This document shows, one piece after another, positions 2,788 to 30,413 of a DNA stretch of 64,000 bases. The DNA lies in assembly GCF_900162725.1 (NCBI RefSeq), contig NZ_LT799418.1, positions 189,194 to 253,193 on the forward strand. Reading direction: 5' to 3'. The DNA is from Parabacteroides sp. Marseille-P3160 (GTDB taxonomy: Bacteria > Bacteroidota > Bacteroidia > Bacteroidales > Tannerellaceae). The notes beneath the pieces are model-generated. The model was not told where the DNA came from, made no database searches, and was given only the letters and a program-made list of their open reading frames with translations. Positions within the stretch are counted from its first letter, which is position 1. Every line of letters begins with the position of its first letter. The translations under genes and the position numbers were made by a program.

Positions 2788-3687
2788 TCAAGGCTTTTCC
2801 GGCCATCGCTTCCGGGCTGTTTCCATCTTCCGCAATACCTCTCCCTTCGTACCGGAAAAGGGACCGATGCGTTCGATTTTCAACGTAGCCATTGCAGCCC
2901 CGAAGTGTCCGGATTGCTCCATGCCGGTCCCTTTGCTGCGTTGGTAAAGGTAACCGGTGAAATAAGTATCGCCACAACCGGTCGCATCCAGCACTTTGTC
3001 GGCTTCATAGGCAGGGATGGAATAGAATTGCCTGCCGTCGTACAAAACCGATCCACGGCTTCCCATCGTGATCAGTACCTCCCGGACTCCCCATTCATAG
3101 AGCAGCCGGGCAGCATGACGGATGTCTTTATATCCGGTCAGGACTTCCATCTCTTCCTCGTTGACTTTCAGGAAATGGATATACGGCAGGACTTCCCTTT
3201 TATTCGTCCAATCGACAGGATAGACGCGGGTATCACGAACTTCGCGCAAATAACCCTGCGAATCGACGGCAACCAGCGCTTTCCCGGATAGGGACTTCAC
3301 AATATCCGGAGAGAAATCATCGGCAAGCAAGGCGCCGAGCAAAAAGATCTGGGCCTCCGTTTGCCGGAAAGCATCGAGAGTGAATGGATCGGCTTTCGCC
3401 AATACCCGTTGGGCACGGTTGTCCTGATCCTCTCCATAACGATTCTCAAAGTAAACCGAATGCCTGCTGGGCATCACTTCCACTTCCACCCCTTTCTCAC
3501 GCAGGTGTTCCACGGTCGGATATTCCGATTTACCCAAAGCGGTAATCAACTTGTAGCGGATGTCCGTAAAAAGGGAAAGGGCCTCGGAACAATAGAAAGA
3601 GGTTCCTCCCGGCATTTGCACTGTATTCCGCGGTGTAATCACCTTATCCAAGGTAATATGCCCCACACAGCATAGATCGTATTGCAT
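2788..3687 (-). CDS. PfkB/ribokinase-family carbohydrate kinase
   Basis: 299 residues. ATP-dependent sugar or nucleoside kinase of the PfkB fold. The C-terminal signature is clear: KVLDATGCGDTYFTGYLY, with the Gly-x-Gly-Asp anion hole and catalytic Asp. The N-terminal substrate-binding segment (GHITLDKVI, then MPGGTSFYCSEAL) and LKVNEEEMEVLTG are also family features. The substrate cannot be read from the sequence. I chose ATG 3687 over a TTG eight codons upstream because the TTG lies almost on the predicted transcription start set by the -7 box at 3719-3726. The gene is monocistronic: the next leftward gene has its own promoter. Confidence 0.88.
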   Translation of the reverse strand: MQYDLCCVGHITLDKVITPRNTVQMPGGTSFYCSEALSLFTDIRYKLITALGKSEYPTVEHLREKGVEVEVMPSRHSVYFENRYGEDQDNRAQRVLAKADPFTLDAFRQTEAQIFLLGALLADDFSPDIVKSLSGKALVAVDSQGYLREVRDTRVYPVDWTNKREVLPYIHFLKVNEEEMEVLTGYKDIRHAARLLYEWGVREVLITMGSRGSVLYDGRQFYSIPAYEADKVLDATGCGDTYFTGYLYQRSKGTGMEQSGHFGAAMATLKIERIGPFSGTKGEVLRKMETARKRWPEKP

Positions 3688-3718
3688 TCTGTCCTTGTTG
3701 TTTTTAGTCAATGAGAAG

Positions 3719-3726
3719 CAAAAGTA
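3719..3726 (-). promoter_or_regulatory. -7 promoter box (TACTTTTG) for the PfkB kinase
   Basis: Minus-strand TACTTTTG matches TAnnTTTG. The inferred transcription start is near 3715, giving a leader of about 28 nt to ATG 3687. Confidence 0.5.
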
Positions 3727-4296
3727 CGAAATGCTTATGAAACAGTTATAAAAGATCGTCGGGAACTATTTATTTTTTACCAGCTTGTCTATATAATAAT
3801 CTGGAAACGACGCTTTACTATACTGATTTTCAAAATAATGTATATCCAATTTCATCCTCCGCTAAATCCAATTAACTGTTCTATGGCTGTGAAACACCTG
3901 TTTGACGGCTGTGAAACACGTGTTTGATAGCTGTGAAACACGTGTTCGACAGCTGTAAAACACGTGTGTGACGGACATAGAACACCTACTTGAGTGTAGT
4001 TTAATGATTTTAGTTGACTACATCTTCTCTAACTTGTAAGTTATGACTTGTTTATTATTTAGCTATAAATCATATTGACCTATTTTACCGGGAAAAGATT
4101 GGCTTAAGCATCACTCGCCAATTTCTTGCGCACCTGGGCGGAAGGTAAAAAGCATGCTTCGTATTCCTGTCAGTGAGAATTCAACGCCTATAAAACATAA
4201 ACATCTTATTATCAAAGTTGTCACCCTTTTATTCTTTATTATGACCGCTCGAATGGCCTTTGGGAAAATCAAATGCGGCGGAAAACATTTTTTTGG
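3727..4296. other. Gene-free divergent intergenic region
   Basis: About 570 bp between the leftward PfkB gene and the rightward mnmG promoter. It contains a 22-bp tandem repeat array (3885-3994) and otherwise AT-rich sequence. A 69-codon minus-strand frame at 4111-4320 has no recognisable features and is not called. I found no TTATCCACA-type DnaA box by eye, although the gene orientation switch here would suit a replication-linked region. Confidence 0.6.
3885..3994. repeat. Five tandem 22-bp repeats (consensus RGCTGTGAAACACGTGTTTGAY)
   Basis: Five head-to-tail units of exactly 22 bp start at 3885, 3907, 3929, 3951 and 3973. The first four are close copies of the consensus and the fifth is degenerate (ggacatagaacacctacttg...). 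Each central unit contains CACGTG inside AAACACGTGTTT, an imperfect dyad. The same 22-bp period and words recur at 37320-37407. There are no unique spacers, so this is not a CRISPR array. The array lies in the upstream region of mnmG. Confidence 0.85.
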
Positions 4297-4304
4297 TAAC
4301 TTTG
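4297..4304 (+). promoter_or_regulatory. -7 promoter box (TAACTTTG) for mnmG
   Basis: TAACTTTG matches TAnnTTTG exactly. The inferred start near 4308 gives a leader of about 65 nt before the mnmG ATG at 4373. No -33 box at standard spacing was seen. Confidence 0.55.
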
Positions 4305-4372
4305 CAGACTGGTTTTGCAAGAAATAGAACGGGTTACTTCTTGCCGAAAATCATCCTAAAAGAAATAAAGAA

Positions 4373-20351: not shown

Positions 20352-21323
20352 CTAAGCTTGTTCTACCTTACCCTCAAGGGCGGAAGTGAAGTAAGTCCGG
20401 TATTCATCCGCTTCTCTGCAAATGAAAACCGCTTCCAACGTGGGATTCCGATCAATCCAATGGACGGCCTTCTCTATTCCTCCGACCATACACGCTGTTG
20501 CATAGGCGTCGGCAGTAATGGCGTCATCAGCAATGATAGTCACAGAAACGAGATTATGTTCGGTCGGATAGCCGGTTGCCGGATCAATCGTATGAGTGAT
20601 TTTCCGCCTGTCTTCCATATAAAATTGGCGATAATTCCCGGAGGTAGCAATCCCTCTATCTGTAATTTGCAGGATGACCTGCAACTTTTCACCGGGAATA
20701 CGACGGTTTTCAGACGGATGATCCACTCCGATCCGCCAAATCTCCCCACCGGGATTAACACCTTTTACCCGTATTTCCCCGCCTATCTCAACCAAGTAAT
20801 TGGGACTGCCGCTCTGCGCCAATAGAGCGGCAAGCAAGTCTGCCGAATAACCTTTGGCTATGGCATTCACATTCAGAATGGTTTCGGGAAAATCTTTGAC
20901 AAGCAGCTTCCCTTCCAACCTCACTTTATCCATCCCAATGAACTGTTTTAAATGCTTTATTTGATTTTCATCAGGAATATTTTTTTCTTCCGAACTAAAT
21001 CCCCAAGCTCTGAAAAGAGGTTCTGCCGAAATATCGAAAGCTCCGTCTGTCTGTTTGCTTATCTCCTTTGCACGAGTGAATACGTAGTGGAAAAAATCAT
21101 CAACCTCTACCGGTTCATTCCTGTTCAGGCGTGAAATAAGCGAATGAGGAATATAGACAGAAAGGGACTGCTCGAATTCATCGAACAACCGGATTATATC
21201 CGGTTGAAGATCAGTCCCCTTCTCGTCCTGATAGATAATGTGAAAACTTGTCCCTTCAGCCTTACCCTGGAGACGACGGTAAACGGAACCATCATCAGCC
21301 AGGATCGTATCGGTGGTCGACAT
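20352..21323 (-). CDS. apbE: FAD:protein FMN transferase ApbE (copy 1)
   Basis: 323 residues. ApbE moves FMN from FAD onto a Thr/Ser in exported or membrane proteins, using Mg2+. Motifs are canonical: GAFDISAEPLFRAWGF, NVNAIAKGYSADLLA, LVEIGGEIRVKG, HTIDPATGYPTEHN and the metal-binding DAITADAYATACM. The annotated start has no signal peptide or lipobox, unlike many ApbE proteins that act outside the cytoplasm; if this start is right it would act before its target is exported, which suits a Tat substrate that folds in the cytoplasm. It begins 12 bp after the Gfo/Idh/MocA gene, so that protein is its likely target. Confidence 0.92.
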   Translation of the reverse strand: MSTTDTILADDGSVYRRLQGKAEGTSFHIIYQDEKGTDLQPDIIRLFDEFEQSLSVYIPHSLISRLNRNEPVEVDDFFHYVFTRAKEISKQTDGAFDISAEPLFRAWGFSSEEKNIPDENQIKHLKQFIGMDKVRLEGKLLVKDFPETILNVNAIAKGYSADLLAALLAQSGSPNYLVEIGGEIRVKGVNPGGEIWRIGVDHPSENRRIPGEKLQVILQITDRGIATSGNYRQFYMEDRRKITHTIDPATGYPTEHNLVSVTIIADDAITADAYATACMVGGIEKAVHWIDRNPTLEAVFICREADEYRTYFTSALEGKVEQA

Positions 21324-21335
21324 AGATTCTATAAA

Positions 21336-23027
21336 TTAGCCAAGCTCTCCTCTCACTATTTCTTCCTTGTCTTTGTCCCAATACATAGTTCTTCCTTCCA
21401 GATAAGCGCGCGTTCCCATATGCGCCGTGATGGCCTCCTGGAATGCTTCATCTATCCCGCAAGATGTTTTCTTGTTTCTGTCACGGATACATTCGAGCCA
21501 TTCACGAATATGCAGAAAAGTAGTATCGTAACGCTTACCGCCAAGATAGGAATAAAGCAATCCGCGTTGGGCAAAATATAATTCGGTGGCAGAGGTTACT
21601 GCGTCCACATTACTTTTTCCGGGGACATAGGTGTAAAAAGGTACATTAGGTTTGATGATCCCTTTGTCTATCTTTTCTTTATAACGCGTAGAAGCGGAAT
21701 CTACCTTGACAGTCAGCGTATCTCCTACTTCCATGGAAGCGTCATGACCCATTATCACCTTCCCGCGATTGCGGTTGCTGGCTAATGTCGCACTGTAAAG
21801 CATCGTCATGTTCTTATCCGGAAATTCAAAGGTCGTTTGCAAAACATCGGGTACTGTCCTTCCATCCTTGAAGAAATAAACACCTCCGGAAGAAGTAGCC
21901 GAATGAGGGATTCCAACGCCCAACAGTTGATTAATCGCATCGTATTCATGAGTCAATAAATCCCCACTCAAACCGGTGCTATAGTCCCACCAACAACGCC
22001 AACGGAAGAAACGCGGGAGACTAAATTTAGTTCTCTCCTCCGGGCCTACGTATTTAAGAAGATTATATTTAGTCATATAATCCATGTATTCCTTCACACG
22101 TTCTTCATTTCCTTCAAATTGTTTCCAATCAATGGTTTGTTCATTTGCCGTCGGATCGATATTATATACCCATGCGCCGTTGGGATCGTTCCGGTTGGTA
22201 CAAACCTCAATGAGTGAAATCGGACCCAGCAAGCCTTTATCTATAATCTCTTTCGCTTTATTATAACTGTCGACCTGGCGTCCTTGATGGCCAAGCTGGA
22301 AAACAATGCCGGTCTGTTTGATAGTTTCCCGCACCATATATGTTTCAGGGACGGTCCAGGATAAAGGTTTTTCAACATAGACATGCTTTCCGGCTTTCGC
22401 CGCTTCCATTGCCATGGTACTATGCCAATGATCAGGACTGGCTATCAGTATGGCATCGATGTCACTGGCTGCCAACATCTCCTGATAGGTACGGTATCTC
22501 TTGGGAGTCGGTCCTAATTTGCCGCCCACCCCTTCGCGATAGATATTTGAACCGGCGGCAATTCCCTGCTCGGCAAAAGTATCGAAAATATCGCAAACTC
22601 CGGCCAGGACGATATTCAGGTCTTCCTGTTCCTTAAAGTCTTTGTAACGAGTATCTTTGGAGTTCTTTTTGGCCGCATCTATTAAATCCTGTAATGATTG
22701 GGGAGTGGCAAAACCGGCTGCCCGAAGTAATTGCTTCCCTCTGATCCCACATCCGATGATACCTAATCTTATCTGTTGCCCATTAGGTTGCATTTTTGCA
22801 ATTGTGGGGCTTTCCTTGCTTACATTAAAGACGTCTTTCACATCTTGCAGGGTCGCATTATACTTTTGTTTTTTGTAAACGCCGTAAGCCAAAGCTCCTA
22901 ATACGGGGACGGTAGCTAACGTTTTGAGAGCGTCTCTCCTGCCTTGGGATTCAGGAAGCGCACTTTTATGCGTCTCCTTATTTTCTTCGTTTTTATCTTC
23001 CGGGGTATTATTTTCTTTAATTGACAT
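21336..23027 (-). CDS. Tat-exported Gfo/Idh/MocA oxidoreductase with putative flavinylation site
   Basis: 563 residues, longer than the usual 350-450. The N-terminus carries a twin-arginine motif (GRRDALKTL, R30-R31) and a hydrophobic stretch (TVPVLGALAYGVY) consistent with Tat export. The Rossmann nucleotide-binding motif is LGIIGCGIRGKQLL, followed by ILIASPDHWHSTMA and the family's EKPLSW motif with the catalytic Lys. Near the C-terminus, residues 475-481 are DAVTSAT (21585-21605), matching D-x-x-[ST]-x-A-T, the site at which ApbE attaches FMN in RnfD/NqrB-type proteins. It lies between doxX-like (14-bp gap) and apbE (12-bp gap). Family members oxidise sugars or cyclitols; flavinylation is my inference from motif and neighbour. 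Confidence 0.88.
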   Translation of the reverse strand: MSIKENNTPEDKNEENKETHKSALPESQGRRDALKTLATVPVLGALAYGVYKKQKYNATLQDVKDVFNVSKESPTIAKMQPNGQQIRLGIIGCGIRGKQLLRAAGFATPQSLQDLIDAAKKNSKDTRYKDFKEQEDLNIVLAGVCDIFDTFAEQGIAAGSNIYREGVGGKLGPTPKRYRTYQEMLAASDIDAILIASPDHWHSTMAMEAAKAGKHVYVEKPLSWTVPETYMVRETIKQTGIVFQLGHQGRQVDSYNKAKEIIDKGLLGPISLIEVCTNRNDPNGAWVYNIDPTANEQTIDWKQFEGNEERVKEYMDYMTKYNLLKYVGPEERTKFSLPRFFRWRCWWDYSTGLSGDLLTHEYDAINQLLGVGIPHSATSSGGVYFFKDGRTVPDVLQTTFEFPDKNMTMLYSATLASNRNRGKVIMGHDASMEVGDTLTVKVDSASTRYKEKIDKGIIKPNVPFYTYVPGKSNVDAVTSATELYFAQRGLLYSYLGGKRYDTTFLHIREWLECIRDRNKKTSCGIDEAFQEAITAHMGTRAYLEGRTMYWDKDKEEIVRGELG

Positions 23028-23041
23028 AATTCTTTTCTCTA

Positions 23042-23530
23042 TTAACGTTTGCAGAATTTACATATAAACCGATCCAAACCTATAATTTGGGAAGTAGGGA
23101 AGTAGATCAGAACCATTAAAGCTCCCATTTCAATCACGTTTTTATCGATCCAAAGGTAAGAACCTTCGGTCGGCATTATATAGGAAGCGCCCACAAAGGG
23201 AGGATGCGACAAATAAAATAACGCTAAAAACAGAATGCCTCCAATGGATGCCAATCGAGAAAAACAACCTAAAATAAGTCCTAATCCTACCACTGTCAGC
23301 CCATATGCATTGACAATATTAACGATTCCCAATAAGCTCGGATTAGAAGCAATTGACTGAAAGAAAGAAGAAAGAAACCCTCCAGAATCCATTAAGTACG
23401 GATAGGCACTCCAACCTGGACTCAAAATTTTAGCTACGCCTTCATACAGGAAATGCCAACCGATTAGCAAACGAAGTAATACCAACCAAAAGGTCTGGGA
23501 AGACGAATACATGATTAGTCTATTTTTCAT
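23042..23530 (-). CDS. DoxX-family integral membrane protein
   Basis: 162 residues with four hydrophobic segments (about residues 12-30, 66-88, 93-110 and 130-148), the DoxX/SURF4 plan. The motif RLLIGWHFLYEGVAKI in the first helix is typical of the family. DoxX proteins are linked to quinone or redox reactions in some species, but the biochemical role is often unknown. It is the first gene of the DoxX-Gfo/Idh/MocA-ApbE operon and could couple the exported oxidoreductase to the membrane quinone pool (inference). Confidence 0.88.
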   Translation of the reverse strand: MKNRLIMYSSSQTFWLVLLRLLIGWHFLYEGVAKILSPGWSAYPYLMDSGGFLSSFFQSIASNPSLLGIVNIVNAYGLTVVGLGLILGCFSRLASIGGILFLALFYLSHPPFVGASYIMPTEGSYLWIDKNVIEMGALMVLIYFPTSQIIGLDRFICKFCKR

Positions 23531-26777: not shown

Positions 26778-27851
26778 TCAAATACGTTTCCGGATATACA
26801 GACTGTTGAAACGGATAATGCAAAAAGCAATATAGACATACAATAGATATTGGATGCCACCTATTTGATGAAGGTAAGCAATTGCATAAGCTGCCAGAAG
26901 TATTCCGGCAGTGATGCCTACTCCTTGCCCCAAACGATTGGACCAATCCAGTTTCCGTCCCCAGATCCTTGGGCGGAAAACCCAATTGACAGGAGCGGTG
27001 AATGCATTCAAAAGCAAGATGGAATAAGACATATATTCATAATTGACCCCGTTGAGGATAAAGAGGATCGCCGTCAGCCCGATCATCGCCCCGTAAAAGA
27101 TTTTTCCGGAAGAGGTAGAAGGACTGGACGGCATATCCGTAGCCATAAATATGGCTCCCAACATCAATCCTCCCAGTGAAAAAGAAAGGCTGTTTCCTAA
27201 ATAAAGCAGCAGGTAAAGGGGCAAACTGAAAGCCGCAAACAAGGCAAAAGGGATGTGCCAGGAAATGCGACGCCTAAACAAAAGATAAAGCCCTCCGAGC
27301 GTCAAAAACAGAATGGAATATTCCCCGATAGCTCCCGAAGGTCTAAAGAATAAGCCGTTCAGCAGTTCATTGTCGAAGAGATTGATTCCGGATAGATTAA
27401 CCGCCGTCCGATCGTACCAGATACTACCCGAAGTCATGACGGTAGGGAAGAACACCGTCATAAACTCCCGACCGACCAATGCCGGATTAAAGGGATTCCG
27501 TCCCAATCCTCCCCATAGCAATTTACCGAACAAGACACTCATCGCTCCTCCGAAAGCGACGACATAAAGCGGCGTAAAGGCGCCGATTGTGCAGGAAAGC
27601 AAGATGCCTGTAACAATCCCCGAACCGTCCGTTACGGAGTTTTTCTTGCTCCAGAAGATCATTGAAAAGATAAACTCTGTTAACAAGGCGCTCCCGACAG
27701 CTACCAAGATCACCATGACCGGAACAAACCCGAAAGCAAAATAAGAAAAAACAAGGCAGGGAATCAAGGCAAGTATAACGTCGAACATCACTTTCGACGT
27801 ACTGTCATTGGCTCTGACAAAGGGCGGATACTGTATTTTAACGGATTGCAT
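26778..27851 (-). CDS. rnfD: RNF electron transport complex subunit D-like protein
   Basis: 357 residues, about ten membrane segments, RnfD/NqrB family. Typical features: DGSGIVTGILLS, GGLGRNPFNPALVGREFM, SGAIGEYSILFLTLGGLYLL, WHIPFALFA and GAIFMATDMPSSPST. In most RnfD proteins the loop after the FNPA/PA segment has D-G-x-[ST]-x-A-T with an ApbE-attached FMN; here the equivalent loop (residues 146-160) reads YDRTAVNLSGINLF and has no such motif. It is the last gene of an operon of a small TM protein, apbE, rnfC and rnfD, overlapping rnfC by 14 bp. rnfA, B, E and G are absent on both sides. Confidence 0.9.
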   Translation of the reverse strand: MQSVKIQYPPFVRANDSTSKVMFDVILALIPCLVFSYFAFGFVPVMVILVAVGSALLTEFIFSMIFWSKKNSVTDGSGIVTGILLSCTIGAFTPLYVVAFGGAMSVLFGKLLWGGLGRNPFNPALVGREFMTVFFPTVMTSGSIWYDRTAVNLSGINLFDNELLNGLFFRPSGAIGEYSILFLTLGGLYLLFRRRISWHIPFALFAAFSLPLYLLLYLGNSLSFSLGGLMLGAIFMATDMPSSPSTSSGKIFYGAMIGLTAILFILNGVNYEYMSYSILLLNAFTAPVNWVFRPRIWGRKLDWSNRLGQGVGITAGILLAAYAIAYLHQIGGIQYLLYVYIAFCIIRFNSLYIRKRI

Positions 27852-29121
27852 GGGCTAATTCTTTTATTTTCTTTTTCCCTTCTTTTATACTCTGGATCAG
27901 CGGTACGTTACTCGGGCAAATATATTCGCAGGCCGCACATTCAATGCAATTACTCAACTGGTACTTTTCCAATTTAAAGAATTTTCCCGTACGGTATATT
28001 TCCTCGAACTTCATCGGCATCAGGTGCATCGGGCATACTTCCACGCAATAACCGCATGAGATGCAATTCTGACGCTCCACTACTTGTTTCCTGAATAGCA
28101 ACAGACCGGAAGAGCCCTTGACAAAAGATGCATCCGGATATTCGACAAACTTTCCCATCATCGGCCCTCCCAAAACAAGTATCTTTCCCTCTGCCGAAAG
28201 ATGCAACTCCTCCAACAGATGGGAGATGGGCGTTCCGACCTTGACCTCATAGTTTCCATAATGCAGGGATTCTTCACCGGAAAGGGTTATGAAACGGCTC
28301 ACTAAAGGAATCCGGCGGGCGACCGCCTGATAGACGGAATAAATCGTTCCTACATTGTTGACAAGCACTCCCCTATCCCTCGGAAGTTGATTCCTCGGCA
28401 ACTCAAAGCCCAATACCGACTGTATCAATTGTAATTCCCCTCCCTGGGGATATTCATTCGGAAGAATCTGCAAACGAACCAACGGATTTTCCGGAAGAAA
28501 GGGAGCAAAGACTTTCACCAACTCCTTATTCTGTTCTTCCAAGGTAATCACGATTTGCTCCGCCTGAAGTACTTTGTTTATAATCCGGATTCCTTCGAGC
28601 AGTTCACCGGTATGTTGCTCCATCAATGCATAGTCGGCGGTAAGATAAGGTTCACATTCCGTCCCGTTGACTATCAATGTATGAATCCGCTTCCCATCCA
28701 AAGTATATTTAAGTGAAGTAGGGAATTGCGCTCCCCCCTCACCGACGATACCGGCTTCCCGGATTAATCCTATAATCTCATCCGGACTCAATTCTTCCCA
28801 GCGAAAGATCGTACGTTCTTCCTCCGTCTCTTTGAAATCATTTTTTATAAATAGAGTAGGAACGGCTGTTCCGTCTGCCAGCGGATAGTCTTCAATCGCT
28901 TGCACCACTCCGGAAACCGGAGCATGGATATTGGCAGACAATCCCTTATGGGCCTGTCCTATAAGCTGGTATTTCTTTACCTTTTCCCCGACGGAAACCG
29001 TCGGAAGGGCTGCCTGGCCTATCTGCTGAAGAAGCGGAACATACAAGACGGGAGCGTCTTTTATCTGCCGGATCTTTTCCTTCTTGGTCATTCCCTTCAT
29101 TGAAAAGATATGCATTCTCAT
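27838..29121 (-). CDS. rnfC: RNF electron transport complex subunit C-like protein
   Basis: 427 residues. RnfC is the peripheral subunit that takes electrons from NADH or passes them to ferredoxin through FMN and two [4Fe-4S] clusters. Seen here: barrel-sandwich N-terminus, nucleotide/FMN motif GIVGEGGAQFPTSLKY, NGTECEPYLTADYALM, the SLBB region, and two cluster motifs CISCGYCVEVCP and CIECAACEYICP. It overlaps apbE (ATGA) upstream and rnfD downstream, so the three genes are translationally linked. It is a compact RnfC without the long C-terminal repeat of E. coli. Confidence 0.93.
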   Translation of the reverse strand: MRMHIFSMKGMTKKEKIRQIKDAPVLYVPLLQQIGQAALPTVSVGEKVKKYQLIGQAHKGLSANIHAPVSGVVQAIEDYPLADGTAVPTLFIKNDFKETEEERTIFRWEELSPDEIIGLIREAGIVGEGGAQFPTSLKYTLDGKRIHTLIVNGTECEPYLTADYALMEQHTGELLEGIRIINKVLQAEQIVITLEEQNKELVKVFAPFLPENPLVRLQILPNEYPQGGELQLIQSVLGFELPRNQLPRDRGVLVNNVGTIYSVYQAVARRIPLVSRFITLSGEESLHYGNYEVKVGTPISHLLEELHLSAEGKILVLGGPMMGKFVEYPDASFVKGSSGLLLFRKQVVERQNCISCGYCVEVCPMHLMPMKFEEIYRTGKFFKLEKYQLSNCIECAACEYICPSNVPLIQSIKEGKKKIKELAHAIR

Positions 29122-30044
29122 TTTTCTCCTTTTATATATTGATTAAAACCCTTAGTAAACACCTTATTGTCATTTTCATCAATCATAAAGCCTTCTATTG
29201 GATAAAAGGAAGAAAGAAATTCCATCTTCTCCAGAAAACCACCGGCCGTCTGATTATATAGTCCCGTAGAAAGGATATCTCCCATGAGACAGTTTTCGGA
29301 AACAATTCCCACCTCCTTGTTTGCCGAGGAATAACCGGATTTGGGATCAAGGATATGCCCATACCGGCGACCTCCTATTTCCACGAAAGTCTTTGCCTGC
29401 GAAGAGGTGGAATAACACTGATTGCCTATATTGAGGCGGAATAAAATAGAATCATCCACCGGTTCCCTCACAATAATCTCCCAGAAAGGATGCCCTTCGT
29501 TATTGATCGCCCGTATGGTGCTACCCCCTGCATTAATGATCGCATCGTTGATCCCCAACTTCTCCATTCGATCTGTCAGGCAATCTACGGCATAAGCCTT
29601 GATAAATGATCCCGTAATGATTTCCTGTCCTTCCCCTATGCGAACTCTATTGCCTTCTATAATTATGTTTTTATAATTAATCAAAGGTTTCACCCGCCCG
29701 ATCTCTTCCCGGGAAGGAACTGTGCGTTGATTTTCCCTGTAAAATCCCCAGAGACGGATAAGCGGCATGATCGTCGGATCAAAGTCTCCGTCCAGGCGAT
29801 CCGATAAAGAAATGACCCGTCGCAATAAACGGATGGTTTCTCCATCCACCTCCACAAAATGTCCTGCGTGTTTATTAATTCGATCTATATAAGATCCCGG
29901 TTGGTAAGAATTGTATTTCCTATCGATTTCTTCCAATATCCCAAATAAAACATCAAACAACCTATCCTCATAAAAAACAGATATTTTAATCTTTATATGA
30001 GCATGAAACAAAAACCGTGTCTGTGCCTTATATAACAAACTCAT
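29118..30044 (-). CDS. apbE: ApbE-family flavin transferase (copy 2, divergent)
   Basis: 308 residues. ApbE fold is clear: GDFDPTIMPLIRLWGFY, ITGSFIKAYAVD, HILDPKSGYSS and the metal-binding MGDILSTGLY. It departs from the consensus in two places: SFIKAYAVD for the usual (A/G)IAKGYAVD, and INAGGST where most enzymes have GG-[DE]. No signal peptide is obvious (N-terminus MSLLYKAQTRFLFHAHIKIK). It is between the small TM protein (3-bp gap) and rnfC (4-bp overlap). Because the neighbouring RnfD lacks a recognisable flavinylation motif, its target is unclear. Confidence 0.87.
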   Translation of the reverse strand: MSLLYKAQTRFLFHAHIKIKISVFYEDRLFDVLFGILEEIDRKYNSYQPGSYIDRINKHAGHFVEVDGETIRLLRRVISLSDRLDGDFDPTIMPLIRLWGFYRENQRTVPSREEIGRVKPLINYKNIIIEGNRVRIGEGQEIITGSFIKAYAVDCLTDRMEKLGINDAIINAGGSTIRAINNEGHPFWEIIVREPVDDSILFRLNIGNQCYSTSSQAKTFVEIGGRRYGHILDPKSGYSSANKEVGIVSENCLMGDILSTGLYNQTAGGFLEKMEFLSSFYPIEGFMIDENDNKVFTKGFNQYIKGEK

Positions 30045-30047
30045 CCC

Positions 30048-30413
30048 TTAATTCGTGCCGGATGCTTCTTCTGCCTTTTTCTCCGTTTCGATCACTACCG
30101 GCGCCTTTTCTTTTTTGGATTTGTCAACGGACGATTTATCTTTCTTCCCTTTGCCGGACTTTTGTGCAACAGGAACGGAATCTTTTTCCAACGAGACCGG
30201 CGTTGCCGGATTTGCTACCGTATCCTCTATACTTGTAGAATCTCCCGTTTCTTCGCCGGCAAGTTTATTTTCTTCTTCCTTGCTCACAAGATCCTGCGTT
30301 TCTTTAACCTTCGCATTATTGGAAGCATTCGCTATATAACCCCAAACAATCATAAACACTCCGAAAAAAAATAATCCGGCAGGCCTGATCCATTGATTAA
30401 AAAATGATTTCAT
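30048..30413 (-). CDS. Small single-TM protein with Lys/Ser-rich tail, first gene of the rnf operon
   Basis: 121 residues. One membrane helix (about residues 12-28, PAGLFFFGVFMIVWGYI) is followed by about 90 residues of low-complexity acidic then Lys-rich sequence (KSGKGKKDKSSVDKSKKEK). I do not recognise a domain. It takes the position where RnfG or RnfB might be expected but has neither the FMN-binding nor ferredoxin motifs. Its stop is 3 bp from the apbE ATG. It may be an assembly or anchoring factor specific to this short module. Confidence 0.75.
   Translation of the reverse strand: MKSFFNQWIRPAGLFFFGVFMIVWGYIANASNNAKVKETQDLVSKEEENKLAGEETGDSTSIEDTVANPATPVSLEKDSVPVAQKSGKGKKDKSSVDKSKKEKAPVVIETEKKAEEASGTN

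Follow-up and report, generated by a model that had tools for sequence, protein, structure and literature searches.

In the window, a stretch of 64,000 nucleotides from the genome of Parabacteroides sp. Marseille-P3160 (contig NZ_LT799418.1, positions 189,194 to 253,193), we describe a four-gene module that combines the Rnf subunits RnfC and RnfD with an ApbE-family flavin mononucleotide (FMN) transferase and a small membrane protein, which we call the tail protein. We propose, with a probability of roughly 60%, that this module is a stand-alone, non-pumping, NADH-driven transmembrane electron conduit derived from the output half of Rnf, in which a small, covalently flavinylated transmembrane (TM) carrier would pass electrons on to extracytosolic flavoenzymes. 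The genes are transcribed in the order tail, apbE, rnfC, rnfD and are closely packed into one minus-strand operon (26778-30413), in which the tail stop codon lies 3 nt from the apbE start, apbE and rnfC overlap by 4 nt, and rnfC and rnfD overlap by 14 nt.

30048-30413, minus strand: tail protein gene, 121 residues; short N-terminus, one TM helix, charged low-complexity tail and conserved C-terminus; proposed covalent-FMN carrier
29118-30044, minus strand: apbE, ApbE-family FMN transferase without signal peptide, 308 residues (PF02424, 1e-50)
27838-29121, minus strand: rnfC, 427 residues, NADH/FMN domain plus two [4Fe-4S] sites (TIGR01945, 4e-128; RnfC_N, Complex1_51K and Fer4)
26778-27851, minus strand: rnfD, 357 residues, stand-alone subfamily (PF03116, 1e-72)

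An earlier note, made from the sequence alone, had described a four-gene RNF-like module here, headed by a 121-residue single-TM protein with a charged tail. All four open reading frames (ORFs) are indeed present and Pfam and NCBIfam confirm the families; the tail protein itself matches no Pfam or NCBIfam family.

The module is not accompanied by a pump core. The source genome (4.76 Mb in 5 contigs, 97.8% complete) encodes exactly one PF03116 protein, the RnfD of the window, and neither a PF02508 protein (RnfA/E, NqrD/E) nor a PF04205 protein (FMN_bind; RnfG/NqrC). RnfB is not encoded within the operon, and no genome-wide search for it was made. A PF03116 gene, mostly of the ordinary type, occurs in 62 of the 63 good-quality genomes of the family, the source included, nearly all other members having one or two ordinary RnfD/NqrB genes; the source genome itself appears to lack both Rnf and Nqr pumps. 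Across the 41 module-bearing genomes, PF02508 is absent from 32, and these same 32 also have no FMN_bind protein, while the other nine have both. The module is therefore found with or without complete pumps, and in exactly the 32 pump-free genomes its ApbE is left without an FMN_bind substrate. An FMN_bind protein encoded elsewhere, which we considered as the substrate of the module ApbE, exists neither in these genomes nor in the source genome. The earlier note had pointed out that rnfA, rnfE and rnfG are missing from the locus, which holds genome-wide, and that a pump elsewhere lacking its own C and D would reduce these genes to displaced subunits. We found no RnfA/E, no RnfG and no second RnfD in the source genome, which, together with the 32 pump-free hosts, rules out displacement.

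The following features stand out in the two Rnf subunits.

27913-28065, minus strand: the pair of CxxCxxCxxxCP cluster motifs in RnfC; 43 of 45 module RnfC have the two intact
27381-27395, minus strand: LSGIN in RnfD, near the site of the FMN-linked threonine (TGAT in ordinary RnfD); threonine missing
26784-26945, minus strand: RnfD residues 303-329 and 333-356, two additional TM helices at the C-terminus (AlphaFold2 model, predicted local distance difference test score (pLDDT) about 90-97 over most), outside the region aligned to solved RnfD

The two RnfC in which the cluster motifs are incomplete are truncated ORFs, the ECEP signature is present in 45/45, and the RnfC of the window matches the solved relatives 7zc6_C, 9eri_C and 8ahx_C. 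The predicted model of RnfD (AlphaFold2, pLDDT 83.6) superposes over residues 14-305 on solved RnfD (9eri_D, 8ahx_D) with a fold Z of about 30; its N-terminus is short, with the first predicted helix at residue 18, and the protein matches only PF03116, with no fused PF00175 NAD-binding domain. The threonine that carries covalent FMN is missing in all module RnfD and kept in the ordinary RnfD of the same alignment. A sequence in RnfD, DMPSS[AP]S, was considered as a new ApbE-type site and dismissed, as it aligns with FMATDYVTSP of ordinary RnfD and reflects shared ancestry. In solved Rnf, electrons pass directly between the riboflavin of RnfD and the [4Fe-4S] clusters of RnfC (PMC12174285), and RnfC plus RnfD therefore make a coherent half-circuit.

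The earlier note had suggested surveying Bacteroidota for the same four-gene order, and the arrangement recurs in about 40 other loci, beyond what chance would produce. Among 393 genomes searched within the order, four others have a full-length RnfD 54-68% identical to that of the window, as opposed to at most about 41% for full-length ordinary RnfD. Scanning about 85,000 species genomes yielded 46 loci (numbered with L below), 45 of which carry a module RnfD; we excluded the remaining one, L110, from the module set as an ordinary Rnf operon. Hosts include Dysgonomonas, gut 'Prevotella' metagenome-assembled genomes, P. cerevisiae, Flavobacterium, Myroides, Zunongwangia, Pontibacter, Chryseobacterium, Oxalobacter, Leptotrichiaceae and others. 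An ApbE of the same subfamily is linked in 40 scan loci and in the window, the order tail-apbE-rnfC-rnfD is kept nearly always, and the genes flanking the module vary between loci, in unrelated contexts. Module RnfD forms a single branch (support 100/100) far from ordinary RnfD, in which the copy of the window is placed among those of Dysgonomonas, Oxalobacter and P. cerevisiae. Since only two genomes in a sample of 392 Bacteroidota, the source genome and Myroides guanonis, carry the module, it is rare and patchy. Genome G928 turned out to be the record of L098 itself and so does not count as an out-of-sample genome. Among the loci that depart from the usual gene content, L092 (5602-8062) has tail-apbE-rnfD without rnfC, and L085 (6929-8056) a module-type RnfD alone; either these are partial units or their RnfC is encoded elsewhere. 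In L111 (6554-6892, Leptotrichia hongkongensis), which has no linked apbE, a 112-residue charged protein without a TM helix lies between rnfC and rnfD. In many Dysgonomonas loci (e.g. L062, 2762-3283), a gene that lies upstream of, and divergent from, that of the tail protein encodes a conserved secreted protein of no known family.

By its sequence, the module ApbE represents a distinct, signal-less subfamily. The Ser/His/Asp triad, described for Vibrio ApbE (PMC12052999), is kept in all 41 aligned copies, all of which also have K[AS][YF] in place of KGY; NAGGS stands where the two longest other ApbEs of the source genome, which has three further ApbE genes, read IGGE. A signal peptide is predicted in none of the module ApbEs. 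Elsewhere in the window lies a second flavinylation-like cluster (20352-23530, minus strand), comprising an ApbE without evident signal peptide (20352-21323), a Gfo/Idh/MocA oxidoreductase (21336-23027) with a twin-arginine-like start (GRRDALKTL) and the sequence DAVTSAT, near the ApbE motif, and a DoxX protein (23042-23530). Judging from these signals, the Gfo/Idh enzyme is possibly exported by the twin-arginine translocation (Tat) pathway and flavinylated, a likely substrate of the adjoining ApbE.

The tail protein offers a candidate substrate for the module ApbE. It accompanies this enzyme in all 41 loci, and a homologue lies directly upstream of every module-type apbE found.

30333-30383, minus strand (approximate): the only TM helix of the tail protein, residues ~11-27, from hydrophobicity; LFxFGxxxIxWGY core conserved in homologues
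30051-30071, minus strand: C-terminal motif EEASGTN, with E at -7, A/S at -5 and S/T at -2; its penultimate Thr is the candidate flavinylation site

After the shared TM core, members of the family diverge into an unalignable, charged low-complexity stretch of about 20 to 115 residues, at the end of which conservation returns: all homologues have Glu at -7 (38/38), Ala or Ser at -5 (38/38) and Ser or Thr at -2 (38/38), so that they end E-x-[AS]-x-x-[ST]-x, usually with T-x-[IV]-E at -15 to -12 as well. In addition to these 38, the frame-disrupted copies of L070 and L103 preserve this end in another frame (EEASGTE and EYASDSQ). ApbE is known to act on D-x-x-[ST]-G-A-[ST], attaching FMN to the final residue, and this motif functions well when it stands at a protein terminus (PMC12052999); the tail protein of the window, which ends EEASGTN, has no such canonical motif, and the tail end resembles it minus one residue. 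The best individual indication of a link between the two comes from L065 (genome G245), where rnfC-rnfD occur without apbE in the locus and a 55-residue protein ends 3 nt before rnfC. Through its TM region this protein is a tail homologue (profile hidden Markov model E-value 7e-5 among 5,183 ORFs, the protein being outside the training set), and it carries a canonical ApbE motif, DALTGAS; the strict motif turns up about 8e-4 times per ORF of this size in these loci. Its nearest RnfD relative, that of L081, has a 51-residue tail ending EESSGSL and a linked ApbE. In this pair, the textbook ApbE site is present in the tail where the dedicated ApbE is missing. When we sought a second canonical-motif tail in the family of G245, the module was found in G245 only. 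Taken together, these patterns of conservation indicate that the tail protein is a conserved family whose C-terminal motif region is probably the ApbE substrate.

Relatives of the module also hint at where its electrons go. Directly behind rnfD, 20 loci, every one of them of the flavobacterial-type branch, encode a nitroreductase that bears a lipoprotein or Tat signal. Exported PNPOx-like proteins are encoded in three loci and contain the canonical motif DAITGAT or DAISGAS.

L099:2767-3360: PNPOx-like protein, a lipoprotein, ApbE motif preceding the PNPOx domain
L104:8117-8662: PNPOx-like protein with N-terminal signal/anchor, ApbE motif preceding the PNPOx domain
L107:8124-8669: PNPOx-like protein with N-terminal signal/anchor, ApbE motif preceding the PNPOx domain

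On the strength of these motifs, the PNPOx-like proteins are candidates for a new type of flavinylated domain. The linkage of both kinds of exported protein in relatives is suggestive of an extracytosolic outlet. Two Flavobacterium loci, L100 and L094 (both at 3629-4324), have another lipoprotein nitroreductase, of the Tat type, immediately ahead of the tail gene, so that their modules are flanked by two exported nitroreductases. In the branch of the window no acceptor gene is linked to the module, and the source genome encodes an unlinked lipoprotein nitroreductase. Some Dysgonomonas and the source genome have an unlinked exported nitroreductase, but others do not, and relatives of the gene are found in some controls; we rejected such an enzyme as a universal partner.

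These observations can be assembled into a working model. RnfC would oxidise NADH through its FMN and then its two [4Fe-4S] clusters and hand electrons to RnfD, opposite to the forward direction of Rnf, and RnfD would move them across the membrane via its flavin sites, its outer FMN presumably being no longer covalently bound. The dedicated, signal-less ApbE would place a covalent FMN near the C-terminus of the tail protein, which could then dock at RnfD as a minimal mobile FMN carrier, an analogue of RnfG without a globular domain, its FMN substituting for both RnfG and the lost covalent FMN of RnfD. From the tail protein, electrons would reach extracytosolic flavoenzymes, possibly the exported nitroreductase beside rnfD in flavobacterial-type loci and an acceptor encoded elsewhere in the source genome. 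The earlier note had imagined a simple conduit from NADH to the outside; the stand-alone status of the module and the exported flavoenzymes linked in relatives speak for that idea, which for the source genome is a prediction. The lost threonine of RnfD, the distinct ApbE and the tail family with its invariant C-terminal motif had no part in it. At somewhat less than even odds, we further put forward the tail protein as a new class of ApbE substrate and flavin carrier: a membrane-anchored, mostly disordered arm with FMN on its penultimate Ser/Thr, modified by a signal-less ApbE that would recognise a shortened E-x-[AS]-[ST]-x-[ST] end. The arm would stand in for RnfG as well as for RnfD's covalent FMN in an NADH-driven electron export by two subunits.

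Several observations weigh against this conduit, and some of them favour other explanations. Compared with the tested ApbE motif, the usual tail motif is short by one residue and has no G-A, so that recognition by ApbE is itself an extrapolation; the canonical-motif tail is known from the single locus L065; and the tail of L072, which has neither a linked ApbE nor a canonical motif, ends PEKSGGSQ. The tail end could accordingly be a docking or processing signal, as other kinds of peptide-end signals exist, with the module ApbE modifying some other protein or merely supplying FMN. We regard this as unlikely, given the presence of the tail in all module-ApbE loci, the DALTGAS of the L065 homologue and the 32 genomes without an FMN_bind substrate. 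Topology raises the chief difficulty: the module ApbE is cytosolic by its sequence, whereas an extracytosolic carrier needs its tail outside, and positive-inside counts leave the orientation of the tail undecided, both flanks of its TM helix being positive. Flavinylation may precede translocation, or the tail may be cytosolic. In the latter arrangement (N-out, C-in), ApbE would modify the tail in place and RnfC/RnfD would exchange electrons through the tail with a cytosolic donor or acceptor instead of the outside, which would suit the lack of an ApbE signal peptide in any locus, the Arg/Lys conserved directly after the TM helix in most copies (G-[NYQ]-[RK]) and the precedent of a cytosolic ApbE with a cytosolic substrate in Klebsiella (PMC12052999). 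It is at odds with the export of the canonical-motif proteins of sister loci (the lipoprotein of L099, the signal/anchor proteins of L104 and L107), with the lipoprotein or Tat signals of the linked nitroreductases, and with the four positive residues that precede the TM helix of the L065 tail and favour N-in/C-out; we consider it, too, a minority prospect.

The remaining points against the conduit concern its reach, as a few loci have no ApbE or RnfC (L072, L085, L092, L111) and nitroreductase linkage is limited to the flavobacterial-type branch, an unlinked exported enzyme not being universal in the other. RnfC-RnfD might instead be an NADH:quinone reductase with ApbE and the tail protein as assembly factors, for RnfD is homologous to the quinone-reducing NqrB and many hosts have no NQR. 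The quinone pocket of NqrB, however, is formed by N-terminal amphipathic helices that are absent in RnfD and from the short N-terminus of the window protein, and the exported nitroreductases, the tail motif and a flavin transferase without an FMN_bind substrate would be left unexplained, which makes this version improbable. Finally, with two of six subunits left in a family whose members have normal Rnf and Nqr, the module might be taken for a functionless remnant of a degraded rnf operon. Its deep clade apart from ordinary RnfD, conserved gene order, intact cofactor and catalytic motifs and invariant tail end, its conservation across phyla and its occasional coexistence with complete pumps in one genome contradict that view, to which we give almost no credence.

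The surroundings of the operon are as the earlier note had them, with uvrA upstream on the same strand and, downstream, a convergent gene with a weak, sub-threshold match to a type IX secretion system sorting domain.

Compared with known systems, the module shares with the RNF complex (RnfABCDGE) the FMN and two [4Fe-4S] motifs of RnfC, the fold of RnfD and, from RNF structures, direct electron transfer between these subunits; it differs in having no RnfG, no covalent-FMN threonine in RnfD and two extra TM helices there, and because RnfA/E are missing it has no known ion-pumping core. The NQR complex is set apart by NqrD and NqrE, neither of which occurs in the source genome. A precedent is offered by the Nqr/Rnf-like two-subunit systems (Meheust 2021, PMC8238504; Huang 2024, PMC11334425), likewise partial, for which a one-way flow of electrons from NAD(P)H outwards has been proposed. 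Their RnfD-like subunit also lacks the flavinylated Thr, and the FMN of its partner has been proposed to visit its flavin site (PMC10979944). In those systems, however, RnfD is fused to a PF00175 domain that oxidises NAD(P)H, and the domain of the partner is of the FMN_bind type, whereas the module has a separate RnfC, a tiny tail protein and a signal-less ApbE. The cytosolic ApbE of Klebsiella pneumoniae (PMC12052999) also has no signal peptide, but its substrate is a soluble cytosolic fumarate reductase rather than a membrane tail protein. The DUF2271, DUF3570 and DUF4405 flavinylation clusters (PMC8238504, PMC11334425) likewise pair ApbE with partners other than FMN_bind; these partners have unrelated folds, DUF2271 and DUF3570 carry the canonical [ST]GA[ST], and the clusters were picked for exported components.

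We found no description of a tail-apbE-rnfC-rnfD unit in the open-access literature. To enter the main survey, a cluster needed a signal peptide or lipidation site in its ApbE, FMN-binding, DUF3570 or DUF2271 gene (PMC8238504), a requirement that would exclude most module loci. Orphan ApbE was still present in 4% of the genomes of that dataset (PMC8238504), and the tail protein is a concrete candidate substrate for some of these enzymes. If the conduit we propose is real, half of an ancient ion pump works as a plain electron wire, a flavin carrier can be far smaller than the domains known so far, and there is a possible route for reducing exported nitroreductases, to which no NAD(P)H is available outside the cytosol. 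RNF, NQR and the published Nqr/Rnf-like class each have defining features that the module lacks; it lies outside all three and is related to the Nqr/Rnf-like flavin conduits.

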